In this document: positions 2,084 through 33,763 of the stretch, in pieces
Layout: each line of letters opens with the position of its first letter
How positions within the stretch are numbered: the first letter of the stretch is position 1
Source of the DNA: a virus
DNA length: 34,062 nucleotides
Direction: 5' to 3' (one strand)
IMG/VR virus record: IMGVR_UViG_3300010401_000062
Location: 1 to 34,062 of that record
Notes under the pieces: generated by a model
The model's database searches: none
Told to the model about the DNA's origin: nothing
Seen by the model: only the letters and a program-made list of their open reading frames with translations
Made by a program: the position numbers and the translations under genes

Positions 2084-2232
2084 AAACCCACAAAGCTACA
2101 CAGTACGATTGGAGTGGACATTTTTGTGGGACTCACGCTGAGCATGAAAAATGTGAATCAAGAAAATGGTCAGACGTAAATTGTAAGAATTGTCTCAAGA
2201 AACGAAAGCCCAAGAGAAGTAGGGCGAGATAG
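2080..2232 (+). CDS. Cys/His-rich basic miniprotein, 50 aa, GTG start
   Basis: The frame starts at GTG 2080, overlapping the previous stop (GTGA), and ends TAG 2230-2232. The product is Cys/His-rich in its first half (HFCGTHAEHEKCESR), then CKNC and a strongly basic tail (LKKRKPKRSRAR). The Cys/His spacing suggests one zinc site, the tail nucleic-acid binding. It is the last gene before the structured RNA region; the lead motif of the first RNA unit overlaps its final codons. Confidence 0.55.
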   Translation: MKTHKATQYDWSGHFCGTHAEHEKCESRKWSDVNCKNCLKKRKPKRSRAR

Positions 2233-2236
2233 ATTT

Positions 2237-2316
2237 GCCGGTGAGGAATGAACGTGATTCCTGAAACTAAGACATGGTTCGCCCAAAGTGTGGTTCAAAT
2301 CCACCCACTGGCTCCA
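2237..2316 (+). tRNA. tRNA-like element 1 with encoded CCA (possible degenerate tRNA)
   Basis: The acceptor helix GCCGGTG (2237-2243) pairs with CACTGGC (2306-2312) with one G-U. A T-arm (TGTGG-TTCAAAT-CCACC, 2289-2305, four of five pairs) follows tRNA consensus, and T plus CCA ends the element. A hairpin GGAAT-GAACGTG-ATTCC (2245-2261) sits where the D-arm should be but lacks the G18-G19 pair. No normal anticodon arm fits: GAAAC/GGTTC (2263-2280) has one mismatch and an 8-base loop. It may be a decayed tRNA, or a tRNA-like domain used for something other than decoding. Confidence 0.45.
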
Positions 2317-2388
2317 ATTTACGCAGTACCAAACTTCCCAAAGGAAGGGATGTATTGCTGGCCCCGAACTGGCACCGTAAGGTGGCCG

Positions 2389-2492
2389 TTTTCATTAACT
2401 CAAAGTCCTGCATCTGACGAGTTGGGACGTGGAGAAGTAACAGAGCGTGGTTTGTTTAACATGGGTTGCGGGTTCAAGCCCCGCATGAAATA
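2389..2492 (+). ncRNA. tRNA-like element 2 (T-arm plus weak acceptor)
   Basis: A perfect five-pair T-arm GCGGG-TTCAAGC-CCCGC lies at 2468-2484. The following ATGAAA (2485-2490) can pair with TTTCAT at 2390-2395 (six pairs), and ACTC/GAGT (2398-2401/2419-2422) could be a D-stem but with a 17-base loop. About 45 bases separate this from the T-arm, with no clear anticodon arm. No CCA is encoded. The T-arm is solid; the rest of the cloverleaf is doubtful. Confidence 0.3.
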
Positions 2493-2504
2493 GGGGCATA
2501 ACTT

Positions 2505-2643
2505 TTGCTGGTGCGGTGTGGAGTGAACACACAAGTTGTCAATGCGTTATAAAAGGGTGCGACTTCCGTCCAATACGCAACTTACGGGGAATCCAAGGAA
2601 GAGATATGAGACTCCAAGTTGGTTAAATTCCAACCACCAGCAA
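2505..2643 (+). ncRNA. tRNA-like element 3 (extended cloverleaf)
   Basis: TTGCTGGTG (2505-2513) pairs perfectly with CACCAGCAA (2635-2643). Inside lie GTGTG-GAGTGAA-CACAC (2516-2532), AAGTTG/CAACTT (2533-2538/2578-2583) closing a 39-base loop, and a T-arm GTTGG-TTAAATT-CCAAC (2618-2634). Every arm of a cloverleaf has a counterpart in order, but the 'anticodon' loop is far too long and the T-loop has A in place of the invariant C. It is too short for a group I intron insertion. It could be a tRNA-like structural RNA. Confidence 0.4.
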
Positions 2644-2710
2644 TAATTTTGCCTCGTAAGACTTGCAGTAATGCCGAGAGGCCACGTGCTGAGAGCAGGG
2701 GCATAGATTT

Positions 2711-2797
2711 GCCGGAACCGACCTTATAAGTCCTTTTCGGCTTGCCGTGAAAGGTGATGCTTTGTCAACTCATCGGGTTCGAGTCCCGAATGGTGGA
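2711..2797 (+). ncRNA. tRNA-like element 4 (T-arm, 7-base loop hairpin, variable-arm-like hairpin)
   Basis: The lead motif ATAGATTTGCCGG (2703-2715) is followed by GAC-CTTATAA-GTC (2720-2732), whose 7-base loop resembles an anticodon loop (C-T-TAT-A-A), then CCTTT/AAAGG (2732-2736/2750-2754) with inner CGG/CCG, like a class II variable arm, and a perfect T-arm TCGGG-TTCGAGT-CCCGA (2773-2789). No good acceptor partner was found for ATGGTGG (2790-2796). It is probably part of the same RNA family, either degenerate or folding differently. Confidence 0.3.
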
Positions 2798-2865
2798 CTG
2801 GAATATTCGCCACGTTTGACGCCTATCAAGGCCACGGCACAACTTTAAGCAGGAAGAATTCAAAT

Positions 2866-2885
2866 ACTAATTAGCACGAATTAGT
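2866..2885 (+). repeat. Short perfect inverted repeat
   Basis: ACTAATT-AGCACG-AATTAGT, a seven-pair stem with a six-base loop, is followed by a further TTAGTAG repeat. There is no T-tract, so it is not an intrinsic terminator. It could be an operator or an RNA hairpin between structured elements. Confidence 0.4.
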
Positions 2886-2922
2886 AGAGGATTAGTAGTT
2901 AGACTCACAAAGGGGAAATGAA

Positions 2923-3020
2923 TTTGCTGTGCGAAGGACGCCGTGGACTGTGGGAATTTCCTGTTTGACGATCCCTGGCAGAATCATTATCGGCTATAAA
3001 ATGAAACAGGCCACAGCATT
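2923..3020 (+). ncRNA. Structured RNA element 5, upstream of the prepilin-like gene
   Basis: TGCTGTG (2925-2931) pairs with CACAGCA (3012-3018), and CCTGTTT (2960-2966) with AAACAGG (3004-3010): two stacked seven-pair helices separated by one base on the 3' side. The 5' strand is preceded by the lead motif, as in elements 1 and 3. No T-arm is seen. A short frame (ATG 2918, stop 2966-2968, 16 codons with an AAGGGG SD) also starts here and could be a leader peptide. GACTCACAAA occurs on both sides (2902-2911, 3027-3036). Confidence 0.35.
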
Positions 3021-3055
3021 TACTTTGACTCACAAAAACAGGGAGAGGTGGATAT

Positions 3056-3463
3056 ATGAAGAATAAAGGTTTCACGCTCATCGAACTTATGATCGTTGTC
3101 GCAATCATAGGTATATTGGCCGCTATGGCCATTCCTGCGCTTTCAACTCCAAATGGGGTAATGCCAGGATATTCAAAGGGAGAAAGAACAGGTGTTGTTA
3201 ATAAATTAAGCCAAAAAGGAATAATCTGGAAAAGCTGGGAGGGTGAGATTTTGATGACTGTTAAGGGGGCGCAAACAACCACGCCAGAGAAGTTTTGTTT
3301 CAGCGTGCGCGATCCATTGGTAATTAAAAAATTACAATCTGCATCAGCTTCCCAAGAAACGGTGACGCTTGGATACAGCCAATATCTTTTGAAGCCATGG
3401 AAATTGGATACGCAATACTTAATTGTCGCAGTGAAGCAATCAACCATCGCCCAGCGCGATTAG
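3056..3463 (+). CDS. Type IV prepilin-like N-terminus fused to a phage-type domain
   Basis: 135 residues. The first 28 are a textbook type IV prepilin leader and helix (NKG|FTLIELMIVVAIIGIL, with cleavage expected between G and F and the conserved Glu five residues on), so it should be processed by host prepilin peptidase and stay in the inner membrane or enter a pilus. The rest is not pilin-like: YSKGERTGVVNKLSQKGIIW, W-E-G-E and FSVRD match what I recall of a small soluble domain common in phage and enterobacterial hypothetical proteins (GxRxGVVxKLSxKG...WEG...FSVxD). It has a clear SD (GGGAGAGG). The fusion is unusual; it may anchor the domain in the membrane or interfere with pili. Confidence 0.75.
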   Translation: MKNKGFTLIELMIVVAIIGILAAMAIPALSTPNGVMPGYSKGERTGVVNKLSQKGIIWKSWEGEILMTVKGAQTTTPEKFCFSVRDPLVIKKLQSASASQETVTLGYSQYLLKPWKLDTQYLIVAVKQSTIAQRD

Positions 3464-8477: not shown

Positions 8478-8822
8478 ATGCCTGGTAAAGGGAAACCATT
8501 TACTTCGGATGATTCCAGGATAAATCGGAGTGGTCGCCCGGTTGGGGCAACCGACCACAGATGGCATGACATTAGATGGTGGTATCAATTAGTGGTTGAT
8601 AACTACGAACAAATGCCAGCGCGTCAAAAAGTTGAATTGGGATTAAGGGGAATGGCGATGTTAATTTCAAAAATGCCTTCTTTACCTGCAACACCCCAGG
8701 AATCACTGAATAGGATTTTGGATGTAAACGGAGAACTGGCGAAAGCGGAGGCGAATGATAACCCTAAGCCCGGAAGTGACTCAGTACGCATGGGAACAGG
8801 CGAGACTCAAATACAAGCTTGA
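8478..8822 (+). CDS. Probable small terminase subunit
   Basis: 114 residues directly upstream of the large terminase and overlapping it by 68 bases. The N-terminus (MPGKGKPFTSD...GRPVGATD) carries the GRPxG-type basic patch common in phage packaging and DNA-binding proteins; a helical middle (WWYQLVVDNYEQM...KVELGLRGMAMLI) follows, then an acidic C-terminus. Small terminases recognise packaging sites and form rings; they are poorly conserved, so this call rests on position, size and the basic N-terminus. Confidence 0.5.
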   Translation: MPGKGKPFTSDDSRINRSGRPVGATDHRWHDIRWWYQLVVDNYEQMPARQKVELGLRGMAMLISKMPSLPATPQESLNRILDVNGELAKAEANDNPKPGSDSVRMGTGETQIQA

Positions 8823-10236
8823 GCCGAAGCAAAAAGAAGCCTATGACCATATCAAGCGGAGTCCAGCGGAAGAAATATTCTTCCTGCTCTGCCACAGAGG
8901 ATTTGGCAAAACCTTTCTTGGATCGATACTTGGAATTGAAACAGCGAGAAAAGAAGTGGAAGGAAGTATCCTCATCGTTTCAGGAACTCTTAAGAAACTC
9001 CGAACAATTGTTAAGCCTACTTTTGAACAAATACTTCGAGACTGTCCCGAAGCCTATAAGCCAAAGTTCCATGCTCAAGATTCTACGTATGAATTTCCCA
9101 ACGGCATCAGGGTCCACCTTTGCGCAGCTGAAAAGGGTCACATCGAAGATTTACGGGGTATCCACAAAGTAATATTGGTTCTGATTGACGAAGCCGCTTT
9201 CTTTGGGGACGAGGACGATAGCTATCCCCTGGACTACGTGATTGAGCACATCTTAAACCCCATGTTCATCCGCACCGCTTCGACCCCAAGAATTATCATG
9301 ATGACCACTCCTCCCGACGTACCAAACCACCCTTGCAAGAAGTACTACGAGAAAGCCCAGGAAGCCGGATGTGTGGCGACCTTTGACATCCTGAACTCAG
9401 ACATCCCGGAACATAAGATAGAAGAACAGAGGAGACGTTGCACCGACCCTTTGGCATGGCAGAGAGAGTATTTGTGTAAGTGGGTAGTGGACACAAACCG
9501 TCTCATTGTTCCTGAATGGGACTCCTCAAAATATGTTCAGGAGGTGGCTCATGACAGGTACTTCGATTTTTTCCACAAATATGAGTTTTTGGATACGGGC
9601 GTTCGGGATTTCACTATCAACATTTTTGCTTATTATGATTTTAGGAACGCTCGCATGGTGGTTGAAGACGAGATACTCCTCAAAGGGGACCAGGTCAGGA
9701 CCGACATTCTCGCGGATCGAACGAAGGAAAAGGAAAAGAGTCTTGGCTATACCAAGATGTACCGGAGGATCGGCGACAACAATAACCTGATCATCTTGAA
9801 TGACCTATCCGGTCCCAAACACAATCTCACGTTTATGGCGACGTCCAAAGGGGTGTTGAACTCGAACGTAGCAGATGAAGATTTTGGAATGGTAAACGAA
9901 TTAAGGCTTTGGGTTAATGCGGGAAGGGTGTATATTCATCCGCGTTGCAAATATGTTATCGGTTGTTTTGAAAATGGGATCTGGGACAAGAGCAAGAAAC
10001 AGTTTGCGAGATCGGCTACTTATGGTCATTTTGATGGACTTGCCGCCATGTGTTATGGAGTCAGGCACGTTGACCAGCAAACAAACCCGATTCCTGCGAC
10101 TTTTGGGATCAGTGAGCAGACCCACAGTATCCCGCCGGGCAAAGAGGAATCGAAGAACTACAAAGAGTTGAGAAAAGCTTTGCACATTCAGAAGATCAAA
10201 CGATCTACTGAAGATTGGCGAACGAGGGCAGCGTGA
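8755..10236 (+). CDS. terL: Terminase large subunit (DNA packaging motor)
   Basis: 493 residues, full length. Walker A-like CHRGFGKT (about 46-53), Walker B VLIDEAAF (about 142-149) and a coupling-motif-like MMTTPP in the ATPase half. The nuclease half shows YYDFRNARMVVEDEILL (first strand and a later acidic strand) and HFDGLAAMCY near the C-terminus, as in phage RNase H-like terminase nucleases. It translocates DNA into the prohead through the portal using ATP and cuts the concatemer. SD GGAGG precedes ATG 8755. The start lies inside the small-terminase candidate. Confidence 0.9.
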   Translation: MITLSPEVTQYAWEQARLKYKLEPKQKEAYDHIKRSPAEEIFFLLCHRGFGKTFLGSILGIETARKEVEGSILIVSGTLKKLRTIVKPTFEQILRDCPEAYKPKFHAQDSTYEFPNGIRVHLCAAEKGHIEDLRGIHKVILVLIDEAAFFGDEDDSYPLDYVIEHILNPMFIRTASTPRIIMMTTPPDVPNHPCKKYYEKAQEAGCVATFDILNSDIPEHKIEEQRRRCTDPLAWQREYLCKWVVDTNRLIVPEWDSSKYVQEVAHDRYFDFFHKYEFLDTGVRDFTINIFAYYDFRNARMVVEDEILLKGDQVRTDILADRTKEKEKSLGYTKMYRRIGDNNNLIILNDLSGPKHNLTFMATSKGVLNSNVADEDFGMVNELRLWVNAGRVYIHPRCKYVIGCFENGIWDKSKKQFARSATYGHFDGLAAMCYGVRHVDQQTNPIPATFGISEQTHSIPPGKEESKNYKELRKALHIQKIKRSTEDWRTRAA

Positions 10237-12011: not shown

Positions 12012-14035
12012 GTTTAGAGAAGTCCAAGAAGCCGAAAGAATACTTTGCCGCCGATGAGGAGGTTTCCGATTGCGTATCCGGACTGATCGATCATATCGAA
12101 GGGTATTACAAGGAAATGAACCGGACGGGACGAGTAAACCTGTACCGAAATTCGTACTTCAAGTTTTATCAGGGTTTTATCCTCAAGGGCGCTCTCTACC
12201 ATTCAGGTCAAGAAGGGGAGCTGGTAAACACGTACGTCAATCACTATGCGAACTTGATCACTCACATGGTGAACATGGTTTGTCAGCAGAAACTGGCCTA
12301 TGAACCCCAAGCGACTGTCACAGACTCGGAAGCACAAGACCAGATTAAACTTGCCAAAGGTATCCTATACGCTTATGCAAACCGGTCAGACATGGATCTG
12401 GACGGGGTACTTAGAAACGCGACCGAAATGTCATGCGTTTTCGGAGAGTCTTATGTCTCAGTACTCTGGAACAAGCATCTGGGACAGACCATTGCTTACA
12501 AGCAGGACGAAACGGGGGAAAATCAAGAAATAAAGGAAGGGGACAATGAATATCGTGTCTGGAGTCCGTTTGATATCATTGTTGATACTACTTTGCCTGC
12601 TCATCAATTACATTCTTGGATTTGCCTTAGGAAGTGGGAGAATAAGTTTGAAGTGGCCGCTGAGTATACAGATTGGGCTGACGACATCGTGTCTCTTTTC
12701 GCTGGCAATGGACTGGGTGATACGCAGCTCACTTACACGATCAACGAAACTTCCGACATAATCCCCGTTTATTACTTCTTTCACAAAAAGACTGCTGCGG
12801 TTCCCAAAGGCCGGTTCACCAAGTTCATTGACGACACGATCATTCTGGCGGACGGTGAACTGCCCTACCGTGAGATCCCGCTTTACAGAATGGCAACCCG
12901 CGAGCTCTGGGGTTCGCCTTATGCTTACTCAAGAGCTTTTGACCTTCTCCCACTCCAAGAGACAATTGACAGGCTTTGTTCTGCGATTGTCACCAACCAA
13001 CTTACTTTTGCCACTCAGAATATTGCGATTGCTAAAGGTTCAAGTATCTCTTGGGAGAATCTTTACGGAGGGCTCAATGTCATCGAATGGGATGCAACGA
13101 TCGCAGGCAAAGATGGAAAACCAGAGGCCTTGCAGCTTACTTCAAGCCCGCCTGAGGTGTTTAGTTTTATTAAACAGTGTGTTGCCGACATGGGAACGCT
13201 GGCAGGAATCAACGAGGTTGTTCGAGGAAATCCAGACCTTACGCTCAAAGGGCAGGTATCGGGCGAAGCGTTAGCAATGATGACTGCAAACGCCATCCAG
13301 TTTAACTCAGACCTCCAAAAAGCTTATGTGAGACTGTCAGAGCAAGTAGGGACGGCGACCATCCACAATCTTCAAGACTTCGCATTCCCAGACTTGGGAG
13401 AAGGCAAGACTTTGTCAAGAGACGGGATGAGTCAGGGTGCGAATAACAAATATTCAAAGCAAAAGTTTGATAAATCCAAGTTAAATAAGATCGATAAAAT
13501 CGTGGTGAGATACGGAAACCCATTGGCCCAAACGACTGCCGGCCGGACCCAGATCGCAGAATCTTTCTTGGCGAAACAACTGATCACCCCTCAGCAATAC
13601 TTCGAGGTGGTAGAGACCGGGGCTTTGGAACCGGTGTTAGAGTCTGAGGAAGCCACGATGAACTTGATCACTGAGATCAAAGAAATGCTGAGACGGGGTG
13701 AGAAAGTGGTCCTTTCTCCTTATGACAACTTCCCGTTATTCATTTTGGAAGGGATGTCGGTACTCTCAAGCATGGACGTGAGGACGGATGTTAAAGTCAT
13801 CCAAGCCGTCCAAGATTTTGTCTCGCAATGTGAACAACGATGGAAACAGCTTTCGATGGCTTCGCCAGAGATATGCGGGCTCCTCAAAATTCCTGTCTTG
13901 CCTCCACCCGCTCCGCCTAACCCTCCGGCGAATCTGCCTCCTGGTGCACCTGGTGGGAATGCGCCAGTGAGGCCAGCTATGCCAGTTCCAAACGGTGTTT
14001 CACCCAATAAATTGCCGCAGCCTGTGGCTGCATAA
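12008..14035 (+). CDS. Portal protein
   Basis: About 675 residues. It lies between terminase and scaffold/capsid genes and has the size of podovirus-type portals. Features: N-terminal KPKEYFAADEE, RVNLYRNSYFKFYQGF, SPFDIIVDTTL, LPLQETIDRLCSAIVTNQ, VVRGNPDLTLKGQVSGEALA (a common portal motif) and a long C-terminal helix, ending in a Pro-rich tail. It forms the ring through which DNA passes. Coding extends past ATG 12116 to the in-frame stop at 11996-11998 with no ATG, GTG or TTG; I take ATA 12008, overlapping TAG as ATAG. ATC 11999 (nearer the GAGGGG SD) is the alternative. Confidence 0.85.
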   Translation: MGLEKSKKPKEYFAADEEVSDCVSGLIDHIEGYYKEMNRTGRVNLYRNSYFKFYQGFILKGALYHSGQEGELVNTYVNHYANLITHMVNMVCQQKLAYEPQATVTDSEAQDQIKLAKGILYAYANRSDMDLDGVLRNATEMSCVFGESYVSVLWNKHLGQTIAYKQDETGENQEIKEGDNEYRVWSPFDIIVDTTLPAHQLHSWICLRKWENKFEVAAEYTDWADDIVSLFAGNGLGDTQLTYTINETSDIIPVYYFFHKKTAAVPKGRFTKFIDDTIILADGELPYREIPLYRMATRELWGSPYAYSRAFDLLPLQETIDRLCSAIVTNQLTFATQNIAIAKGSSISWENLYGGLNVIEWDATIAGKDGKPEALQLTSSPPEVFSFIKQCVADMGTLAGINEVVRGNPDLTLKGQVSGEALAMMTANAIQFNSDLQKAYVRLSEQVGTATIHNLQDFAFPDLGEGKTLSRDGMSQGANNKYSKQKFDKSKLNKIDKIVVRYGNPLAQTTAGRTQIAESFLAKQLITPQQYFEVVETGALEPVLESEEATMNLITEIKEMLRRGEKVVLSPYDNFPLFILEGMSVLSSMDVRTDVKVIQAVQDFVSQCEQRWKQLSMASPEICGLLKIPVLPPPAPPNPPANLPPGAPGGNAPVRPAMPVPNGVSPNKLPQPVAA

Positions 14036-16091: not shown

Positions 16092-17405
16092 ATGACTCAG
16101 TCATCTATCGAAACAACCACTACCTTAAACGGCCTATACAAAGAGGTATACGCCGACAATATTAAGGACTTAGTACCGGAATCGGACATCCTCTTGAAAA
16201 TGGACAACTTCGTATCCAAAGAACAGCGCGAAGGTAACAAATACCATCAGCCCGTCGTCTTGGCGCTCCCTACTGGTGCGACTTGGGGTGTTGGAGTTGT
16301 AACCTTGGTAAACGCCATCGCTTCTCAGTTAGGCGACGCTCAGGTTCAAGGTTCAGCTATTACTCATCGCGATCTCTTGGCTTATGACGCTGCGGCCAAA
16401 GCTGCCAAAGGCGGAAAACAGTCTTTCGCAGAAGCCACGAGCCTCATCGTCAAGAACTTGGTCAAAGCAACCTCCAAATTCTTAGAACTCGATCTATTGT
16501 ACGGAGGCGGTTCTTCTCCCGCCGCTGGTAATAGCATCGCTCAGCAAACCACAAATGCCGCAGGTTCGCCTACGGCCACTGTGACCGCTGTGACGATCTC
16601 GTACAACACTTGGGCACCAGCTATCTTCTCAGGCATGGAAAATTCCCAGATCGTGTTCTACAACGCAGGAACTTTGCTCTCAAGTGGGGTAGATTCAATC
16701 TTCACGATTACGTCCTTGAACGTAGTTCCAGCTTCAGCGACTGTCGGCGGAATCTTGACGGTCACCGGAACGACTGCGGGAACGACACTTCTCCAAGCCC
16801 AGAGCTCAACGACTCTCGACATCTATTGGAATTCATCTTTTGGAAACCAAATGTTGGGTCTTCGTGCGATCTTGGCAACCACCACGGGTACCTTGTTCAA
16901 TATCAGCATGAGCACTTACTCGCTGTGGCAGTCAAATACCTTCGCTTGCGGTTCGACTCAGTTGACTTTCGGAAAACTCCAATCGGCCATTGCTTTGGGA
17001 GTTAACCGCGGTCTTGATTCTGATTCGATCACATTGGTCAGCCCGAACACGTTTGCGAACCTCGTAGACGAACAGGCTGGAGCGAGGATCTACGACAGCT
17101 CTTACAAAGGCGAAAAAGGCGAGAACGGGTTTAAAGAATTGTCGTTCTTCGGTCCGAACGGTGTGAACACGATCAAAGTTCATATCTTCATGCACCAGTC
17201 CGAAGCGATGATATTCCCGAAAGACGAGTTGATGCGCATGGGTCCAGTCGAGAACGTGACGAACACGCTCCCTGGAATGCCGGGCGACTTCTTCGTTCAG
17301 TCTCAGACTTACGCGGCTTATGAACTTCGTTGCTACGCGAACCAGGCCATCTTCCTGGAAGCGCCGGCGCACGGAATCATGATCACAGGTATTACGAACG
17401 TCTAA
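16092..17405 (+). CDS. Major capsid protein
   Basis: 437 residues after the scaffold candidate, with its own SD and a terminator right behind it. Sequence is consistent with an HK97-type coat protein: an N-terminal helical arm (LYKEVYADNIKDLVPESDIL), central beta/alpha regions, and a C-terminal domain with LRCYANQAIFLEAPAHGIMI. About 435 residues is usual for podovirus coat proteins. A Ser/Thr/Ala-rich segment around 165-260 (TATVTAVTISYNTWAP; GGILTVTGTTAGTTLL) may be an inserted Ig-like or decoration domain. The fold is inferred from order and length. Confidence 0.8.
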   Translation: MTQSSIETTTTLNGLYKEVYADNIKDLVPESDILLKMDNFVSKEQREGNKYHQPVVLALPTGATWGVGVVTLVNAIASQLGDAQVQGSAITHRDLLAYDAAAKAAKGGKQSFAEATSLIVKNLVKATSKFLELDLLYGGGSSPAAGNSIAQQTTNAAGSPTATVTAVTISYNTWAPAIFSGMENSQIVFYNAGTLLSSGVDSIFTITSLNVVPASATVGGILTVTGTTAGTTLLQAQSSTTLDIYWNSSFGNQMLGLRAILATTTGTLFNISMSTYSLWQSNTFACGSTQLTFGKLQSAIALGVNRGLDSDSITLVSPNTFANLVDEQAGARIYDSSYKGEKGENGFKELSFFGPNGVNTIKVHIFMHQSEAMIFPKDELMRMGPVENVTNTLPGMPGDFFVQSQTYAAYELRCYANQAIFLEAPAHGIMITGITNV

Positions 17406-33567: not shown

Positions 33568-33763
33568 ACTGGCCTCGTTCAAACACTCTTTGCTGAGCCA
33601 GAATAAATCAAGCGAAAGAAAAGTGACCAACTGCAAGCTCTGTGCTTTTACCCTTTCTCACAACTTGCGACCTGCATACTCTTAAATTCTTAAGAAATAG
33701 AGTCATACAGAGAGACGACGCTTTGAATCCCGGTTATGCAGGGGGGCAAAGAAAGGGAGAGCT
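33568..33763 (+). other. Gene-free leader of the right-hand operon
   Basis: No convincing gene. A palindrome TTCTTAAGAA (33688-33697) sits within ACTCT...AGAGT (around 33677-33703). A weak -35-like TTGCGA lies at about 33665 without a good -10. GAAAGGGAGA before 33764 is the SD of the next gene. Confidence 0.35.

Follow-up and report, generated by a model that had tools for sequence, protein, structure and literature searches.

The window analysed here, the whole 34,062 bases of a virus record with tailed-phage genes, contains a gene-free stretch that we interpret as a small cluster of functional tRNA-like RNAs that do not decode and that descend from tRNA genes, a reading to which we give an even chance. 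In intact units the top half of a tRNA, made up of acceptor helix and T-arm, would be retained, with unrelated and often longer sequence replacing the D and anticodon parts (Table 1). In favour are T-arms beyond chance expectation, in-register acceptors in units 1 and 3 (U1, U3), double changes in the T-stems, a unit in a related phage (G002), the shared plan of T4 rnaC, and other viral units missed by ARAGORN. Against are interiors that fold like shuffled sequence, the lack of half of the module in U4 and U5, and an array without homologue in nine related records or next to 20 related pilin genes.

Table 1. Coordinates of the units, their parts and genes in the window, and of the unit in a related phage.
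Feature	Position	Strand	Details
Lead of U1	2222–2236	+	AGGGCGAGATAGATTT type; 13-nt exact repeat ATAGATTTGCCGG
U1, 80 nt	2237–2316	+	acceptor 2237–2243/2306–2312; T-arm 2289–2305
U1 hairpin	2245–2261	+	GGAAT-GAACGTG-ATTCC
U1 3' end	2314–2316	+	discriminator T, then encoded CCA
U2, about 101 nt	2390–2490	+	acceptor-like 6 bp TTTCAT/ATGAAA; T-arm 2468–2484
Lead of U3	2492–2506	+	AGGGGCATAACTTTT; repeat D16
U3, 135 nt	2507–2641	+	acceptor 2507–2513/2635–2641; T-arm 2618–2634
U3 hairpin	2516–2532	+	GTGTG-GAGTGAA-CACAC
U4	2697–2789	+	lead 2697–2715; T-arm 2773–2789; acceptor unconvincing
U5 (doubtful)	2910–3018	+	lead; TGCTGTG 2925–2931/CACAGCA 3012–3018; without T-arm
Type IV pilin-like protein, downstream gene	3056–3463	+	Pfam PF07963, 3.1e-10; PHROG pilin, 2e-8
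Terminase	8755–10236
Portal	12116–14035
Major head	16092–17405		weak match
Single G002 unit, 118 nt	L026 6803–6685	-	in gene-free gap

The array lies in a stretch (2142–3055) in which each of the six frames is interrupted by stops and coding signal is absent, and which is bordered by small genes ending near 2141 and by the pilin-like gene. Its sole sizeable sense open reading frame (2248–2493, 81 aa) spans U1 and U2, and the predicted protein has 0 relatives among 50,697 phage records, all of which bears out the original prediction of roughly 800 nucleotides free of genes. The pilin-like gene is a neighbour of the array, and its linkage to the array is putative; its product carries a conserved segment, YSxGERTGVVxKLSxKGxxWKxWEG, with relatives in 20 viral loci, among which synteny with the pilin gene is not conserved. 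No homologue of the glycosyltransferase-like gene adjoining the array was found beyond the phage itself.

A strict T-arm was defined as GG before and CC after a 7-base TTNRANN loop, with at least four of five pairs. Four such arms occur in 2222–3020, at exactly the positions first proposed for them, and none of 3,000 dinucleotide-shuffled versions of this sequence held more than one (28 had a single arm, 2,972 had none). The remainder of the window and the complementary strand of the region gave no strict T-arm. The T-stems of U2, U3 and U4 have five of five pairs, and that of U1 has four, with one mismatch. Nine related records (about 240 kb) hold four strict T-arms, of which one, in G002, belongs to the related tRNA-like unit and three are in G007 (IMGVR 3300025913_000014): one at an ordinary tRNA, one in a peptidase-like coding region and one other four-pair case. 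A full tRNA of 68 bits lies near the end of the G007 contig (36164–36236, minus strand), possibly as host DNA or an attachment site.

Upstream of the units, leads were identified for U1, U3, U4 and U5, that is, four where five had been claimed. Their repetition is real: ATAGATTTGCCGG is an exact 13-nt repeat (2229–2241 and 2703–2715), AGGGGCATA occurs twice, and a repeated 13-mer arose by chance in 13 of 2,000 shuffles. In IMG/VR the lead motif AGGGGNATANNTTTGCYGG had 17 matches, among which the only in-register unit was one weak chance case (L009).

The leads of U1 and U3 open onto helices that are in register with the T-arm, as first proposed. The U1 acceptor (GCCGGTG/CACTGGC) has 7 bp and a 3' strand that begins right after the T-arm, 76 nt end to end; that of U3 (GCTGGTG/CACCAGC) has seven Watson-Crick pairs and a 3' strand abutting the T-arm, 135 nt end to end, and TT/AA lengthens it to 9 bp. 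Together they comprise 14 pairs, all Watson-Crick except one G-U. The probability of such an acceptor at the fixed offset is 3.7e-4 for U1 and 4.3e-4 for U3, and 3–5% anywhere downstream. U1 also encodes CCA, as had been noted. A seven-base acceptor in register with the T-arm was thus found in U1 and U3; U2 has 6 bp, and U4 and U5 have none, the GCCGGAA of U4 (2711–2717) pairing into a local hairpin. The helix once proposed for U5 is present in the sequence, but there is no T-arm beside it and a partner of equal quality arises in about 5% of shuffles, within chance.

It had further been claimed that paired strands change together between units. The acceptor helices of U1, U3 and U5 differ by a single double change (C-G to T-A), a G-T/G-C change and the loss of one pair from both strands (U5), which is weaker than was claimed; with so little data we regard acceptor co-change as suggestive. 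At T-stem pairs 1–3, across four units and the unit of the relative, eight cells were changed on both sides, compared with at most one in slid controls and a match in none of 500 shuffles, counts that are inflated by the selection of T-arms by pairing.

Folding z-scores were -1.4 for U1, -0.3 for U2, -1.0 for U3 and 0.1 for U5, against an average of -1.9 for 86 ordinary viral tRNAs, and a sliding scan of the region gave a mean of -0.07 with no excess stability. Forced into the acceptor/T-arm topology, U3 folds at -36.4 kcal/mol versus -37.0 kcal/mol unconstrained, and its interior is not firmly structured. An anticodon arm with a 7-nt loop and U33 is recognisable in none of the units, and the five-pair hairpin with a seven-base loop that U1 and U3 carry after the acceptor is without the D-loop GG. 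The internal sequences are unlike each other, lead and T-arm alone being shared. Because z-scores lie near those of shuffles and the region has no excess stability, the interiors would be single-stranded, held by protein or drifting.

The units are therefore tRNA-like without being ordinary tRNAs, as the original prediction had it: neither ARAGORN nor Rfam makes a call, two units hold acceptor and T-arm in register, and a well-folded unit built alike occurs in one related phage. ARAGORN returned 0 tRNA genes for the window and Rfam no family at gathering threshold, the best score for tRNA (RF00005) being 16 bits at 2450–2492, in U2, where the cut-off is 29. Lowered ARAGORN cut-offs were uninformative: a sub-threshold candidate in U1, tRNA-Val(gac), appeared only at 50–75% of the cut-off, where the window yields dozens of further calls. 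The intron options of ARAGORN produced nonsense introns of hundreds of bases. A tmRNA was rejected, with no Rfam match to RF00023 and its relatives and ARAGORN candidates only at the 50% cut-off, in which a tag was not identified. Among phage DNA, the sole similarity was between the 3' end of U1 and that of a real phage tRNA-Thr (24 bases, 96%), and plasmids gave short chance matches.

Nine IMG/VR records hold relatives of the terminase, 50–82% identical over the segments that align best, and prokaryote genome contigs gave no relative. A homologous array is absent from these nine records and from the surroundings of the 20 related pilin genes; this absence and the dissimilar interiors leave the suggestion that the array is a new repeat RNA family unsupported. 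A tRNA-like unit occurs in one of the nine records, G002 (IMGVR 3300006931_000023), whose terminase is 81% identical, and in no other. It comprises an acceptor (CGGGTAG/CTACCCG), a hairpin (GCGAG/CTCGC), a long hairpin (GCACAC/GTGTGTGC), a hairpin TCTAG-AGCAA with the loop ATGCAAA, and a T-arm (TTAGG-TTCGAGT-CCTAA), and the whole plan is the minimum-energy structure (-47.9 kcal/mol, z -5.15). Like the window units it has a 7-bp acceptor and T-arm, extra hairpins and no tRNA call; unlike the array it is a single copy, lies elsewhere in the accessory region, is very stable, and bears its anticodon-like loop, ATGCAAA, in an internal hairpin. The gene adjoining it has no homologues beyond the phage itself.

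The same plan is found in T4 rnaC (species 1 RNA), a real and stable RNA of 139 nt in which a closing seven-base helix and a T-arm in the right place accompany non-tRNA hairpins. The helix is perfect in phiR1-RT (CAGTCCG/CGGACTG) and has two U-U mismatches in T4; the annotated gene has no CCA and adjoins tRNA genes. We found rnaC in 710 phage records; its fold has a z of -4.6, and at gathering thresholds Rfam 15 gave it no match. It is a late RNA seen by Northern blot, with a biological role reported as unknown (PMC9697503; PMC3014915). A covariance model built from six Tevenvirinae homologues scored T4 at 163.9 bits and the diverged copy of Kosakonia phage 305 at 81.9 bits; the window units, at 3.5–7.4 bits, were rejected as members of the rnaC family. 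The architecture is the same and the families are separate. Like U1 and U3, rnaC places an acceptor-type closing helix and a T-arm around a non-tRNA interior, but it is strongly folded and widely conserved, whereas the window units are weakly folded inside and arrayed in a 34-kb record without called tRNAs. The Bacillus cereus pseudo-tRNA 'tRNAOther' is reported to be a predicted tRNA, non-functional in translation, the loss of which gives a phenotype (PMC3399842). It offers a precedent for a functional non-decoding tRNA like the proposed window RNAs, although it is a chromosomal gene at a genomic island, unlike the phage array.

We surveyed 1.09 Mb of viral loci holding a T-arm, in which ARAGORN made 516 calls. 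Eighty strict T-arms lay outside any call, and 13 candidate units of 97–146 nt had an in-register acceptor of seven bases, Watson-Crick throughout in 12 of them, against an estimated chance expectation of about 0.5 (80 T-arms x 110 positions / 4^7), a rate that is no census, the loci having been fetched by a pattern slightly favouring long units. Units at L085, L101, L112, L124 and L174 are like those of the window in having 97–146 nt and a 7-bp acceptor with T-arm, in being missed by ARAGORN and, sometimes, in being tandem. A D-arm of tRNA type persists in many insert-bearing viral units, and Rfam scores several as tRNA; neither holds for the window units. Viral tRNA clusters thus contain units overlooked by the standard finder, of which some are still tRNAs and others apparently are not. 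A search of the phage database with the L026, L112 and L124 units found no full-length homologue.

Several of these loci have features of their own. L124 (IMGVR 3300009037_000004) carries on its minus strand three tandem tRNA-like units of 122–128 nt, ending near 8797, 8665 and 8522 and spaced 132 and 143 nt; they share a variable-region insert, ACCCGCY...hairpin...GGCCTACAAGA, and the phage also has a tmRNA and 31 tRNAs. In L174, two tRNAs (1308–1454, 46 bits, and 1660–1800, 34 bits) each carry a large insert that follows the anticodon arm, and the second has an ordinary Tyr anticodon loop (CTGTAAA, anticodon GTA); the inserts are possible introns or extended variable arms. At L085 (5437–5553, plus strand), a 117-nt unit has a normal D-arm and T-arm, with the anticodon arm lengthened into a long hairpin (z -5.8).

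The acceptor/T-arm half of tRNA is recognised by bacterial RNase P, RNase Z, the CCA enzyme, EF-Tu and T-loop modifying enzymes. If the array were transcribed towards the pilin gene, host RNase P would read the coaxial acceptor/T-arm module and cut at G+1 after the lead, RNase Z or exonucleases would likewise act on it to give separate RNAs of 80 to 135 nt, and the CCA enzyme could complete the tRNA-like end. Release of the units by host tRNA-processing enzymes is probable; a more specific role, as decoy or processing signal, is one that we infer. By analogy with T4 rnaC, the likeliest job would be to engage a tRNA-binding host factor and not to decode, candidates being a processing enzyme, a modification enzyme, EF-Tu or a tRNA-cutting defence nuclease.

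The array might otherwise be a former phage cluster of tRNA genes in decay, having lost function and gained small insertions, with T-arms and some acceptors left. We consider this possible though short of probable, and it stays a strong rival because the array is known from one genome and two units, U4 and U5, are incomplete; unstructured interiors, the T-stem mismatch of U1 and the tRNA-Thr match of its 3' end also fit. Such decay would have been uneven, however, leaving 13 of the 14 acceptor pairs of U1 and U3 Watson-Crick and three T-arms perfect with zero anticodon arms, and it accounts poorly for the enlargement of U3 to 135 nt and for lead elements conserved across units. Uneven retention of the acceptor/T half is expected of selection, unlike neutral decay, and leans towards function.

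Function might lie in the processing itself, the tRNA-like elements recruiting RNase P and RNase Z and so splitting upstream genes from the pilin mRNA, with RNAs otherwise roleless. Bacterial RNase P needs an acceptor plus T-arm, the very parts retained, the interior being free to vary, and the array shares a strand with the pilin gene and lies immediately upstream of it; but pilin genes in 20 other viral contigs are without nearby elements and four copies seem excessive, and we hold such punctuation improbable. It is very unlikely that these are ordinary tRNAs with introns or long inserts, unparsed by ARAGORN and spliced into working tRNAs. Insert-bearing tRNAs do exist in other viral contigs, one of them, at L124, scoring 47.8 bits as Rfam tRNA despite a 57-nt variable-region insert, but those keep the D-arm and score 34–48 bits, whereas the window units reach at most 16 bits and have no U33 anticodon stem-loop, and U1, at only 80 nt, is too short to accommodate an intron. 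That the pattern is accidental, or that coding sequence has been mistaken for RNA, is scarcely credible: an 81-codon frame does cross U1 and U2, but the shuffle tests and the lack of protein relative and coding signal oppose it.

If the units are functional, non-decoding tRNA-like RNAs, an rnaC-plan array in an unrelated small phage, together with viral units missed by the finder, suggests that such RNAs are commoner in phages than annotated, in which case their role (decoy, processing signal or scaffold) becomes testable by comparison beyond T4. A broader proposal, which we rate as rather unlikely, is that tandem non-decoding mimics of the tRNA top half form a class of phage RNA that recurs and has been overlooked, and that is retained because it ties up or diverts tRNA-binding enzymes of the host, among them defence nucleases that cut tRNA. 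This doubtful class would take in the window array, the single G002 unit, T4 rnaC and the insert-bearing units of viral tRNA clusters.

Two further features of the window were observed. Arms of 15 nt at 2382–2396 and 3000–3014 (GTGGCCGTTTTCATT and AATGAAACAGGCCAC) are 87% complementary and may close a loop around U2 to U5, or may pair by chance. At the other end of the record, 33575–33703 directly follows a strong terminator-like hairpin (AAAGCCTCGC..GGCGGGGCTTTT) and is 78% identical to G002 (L026 3309–3182), although the protein of the overlapping open reading frame is merely 39% identical; it is perhaps a conserved non-coding element.
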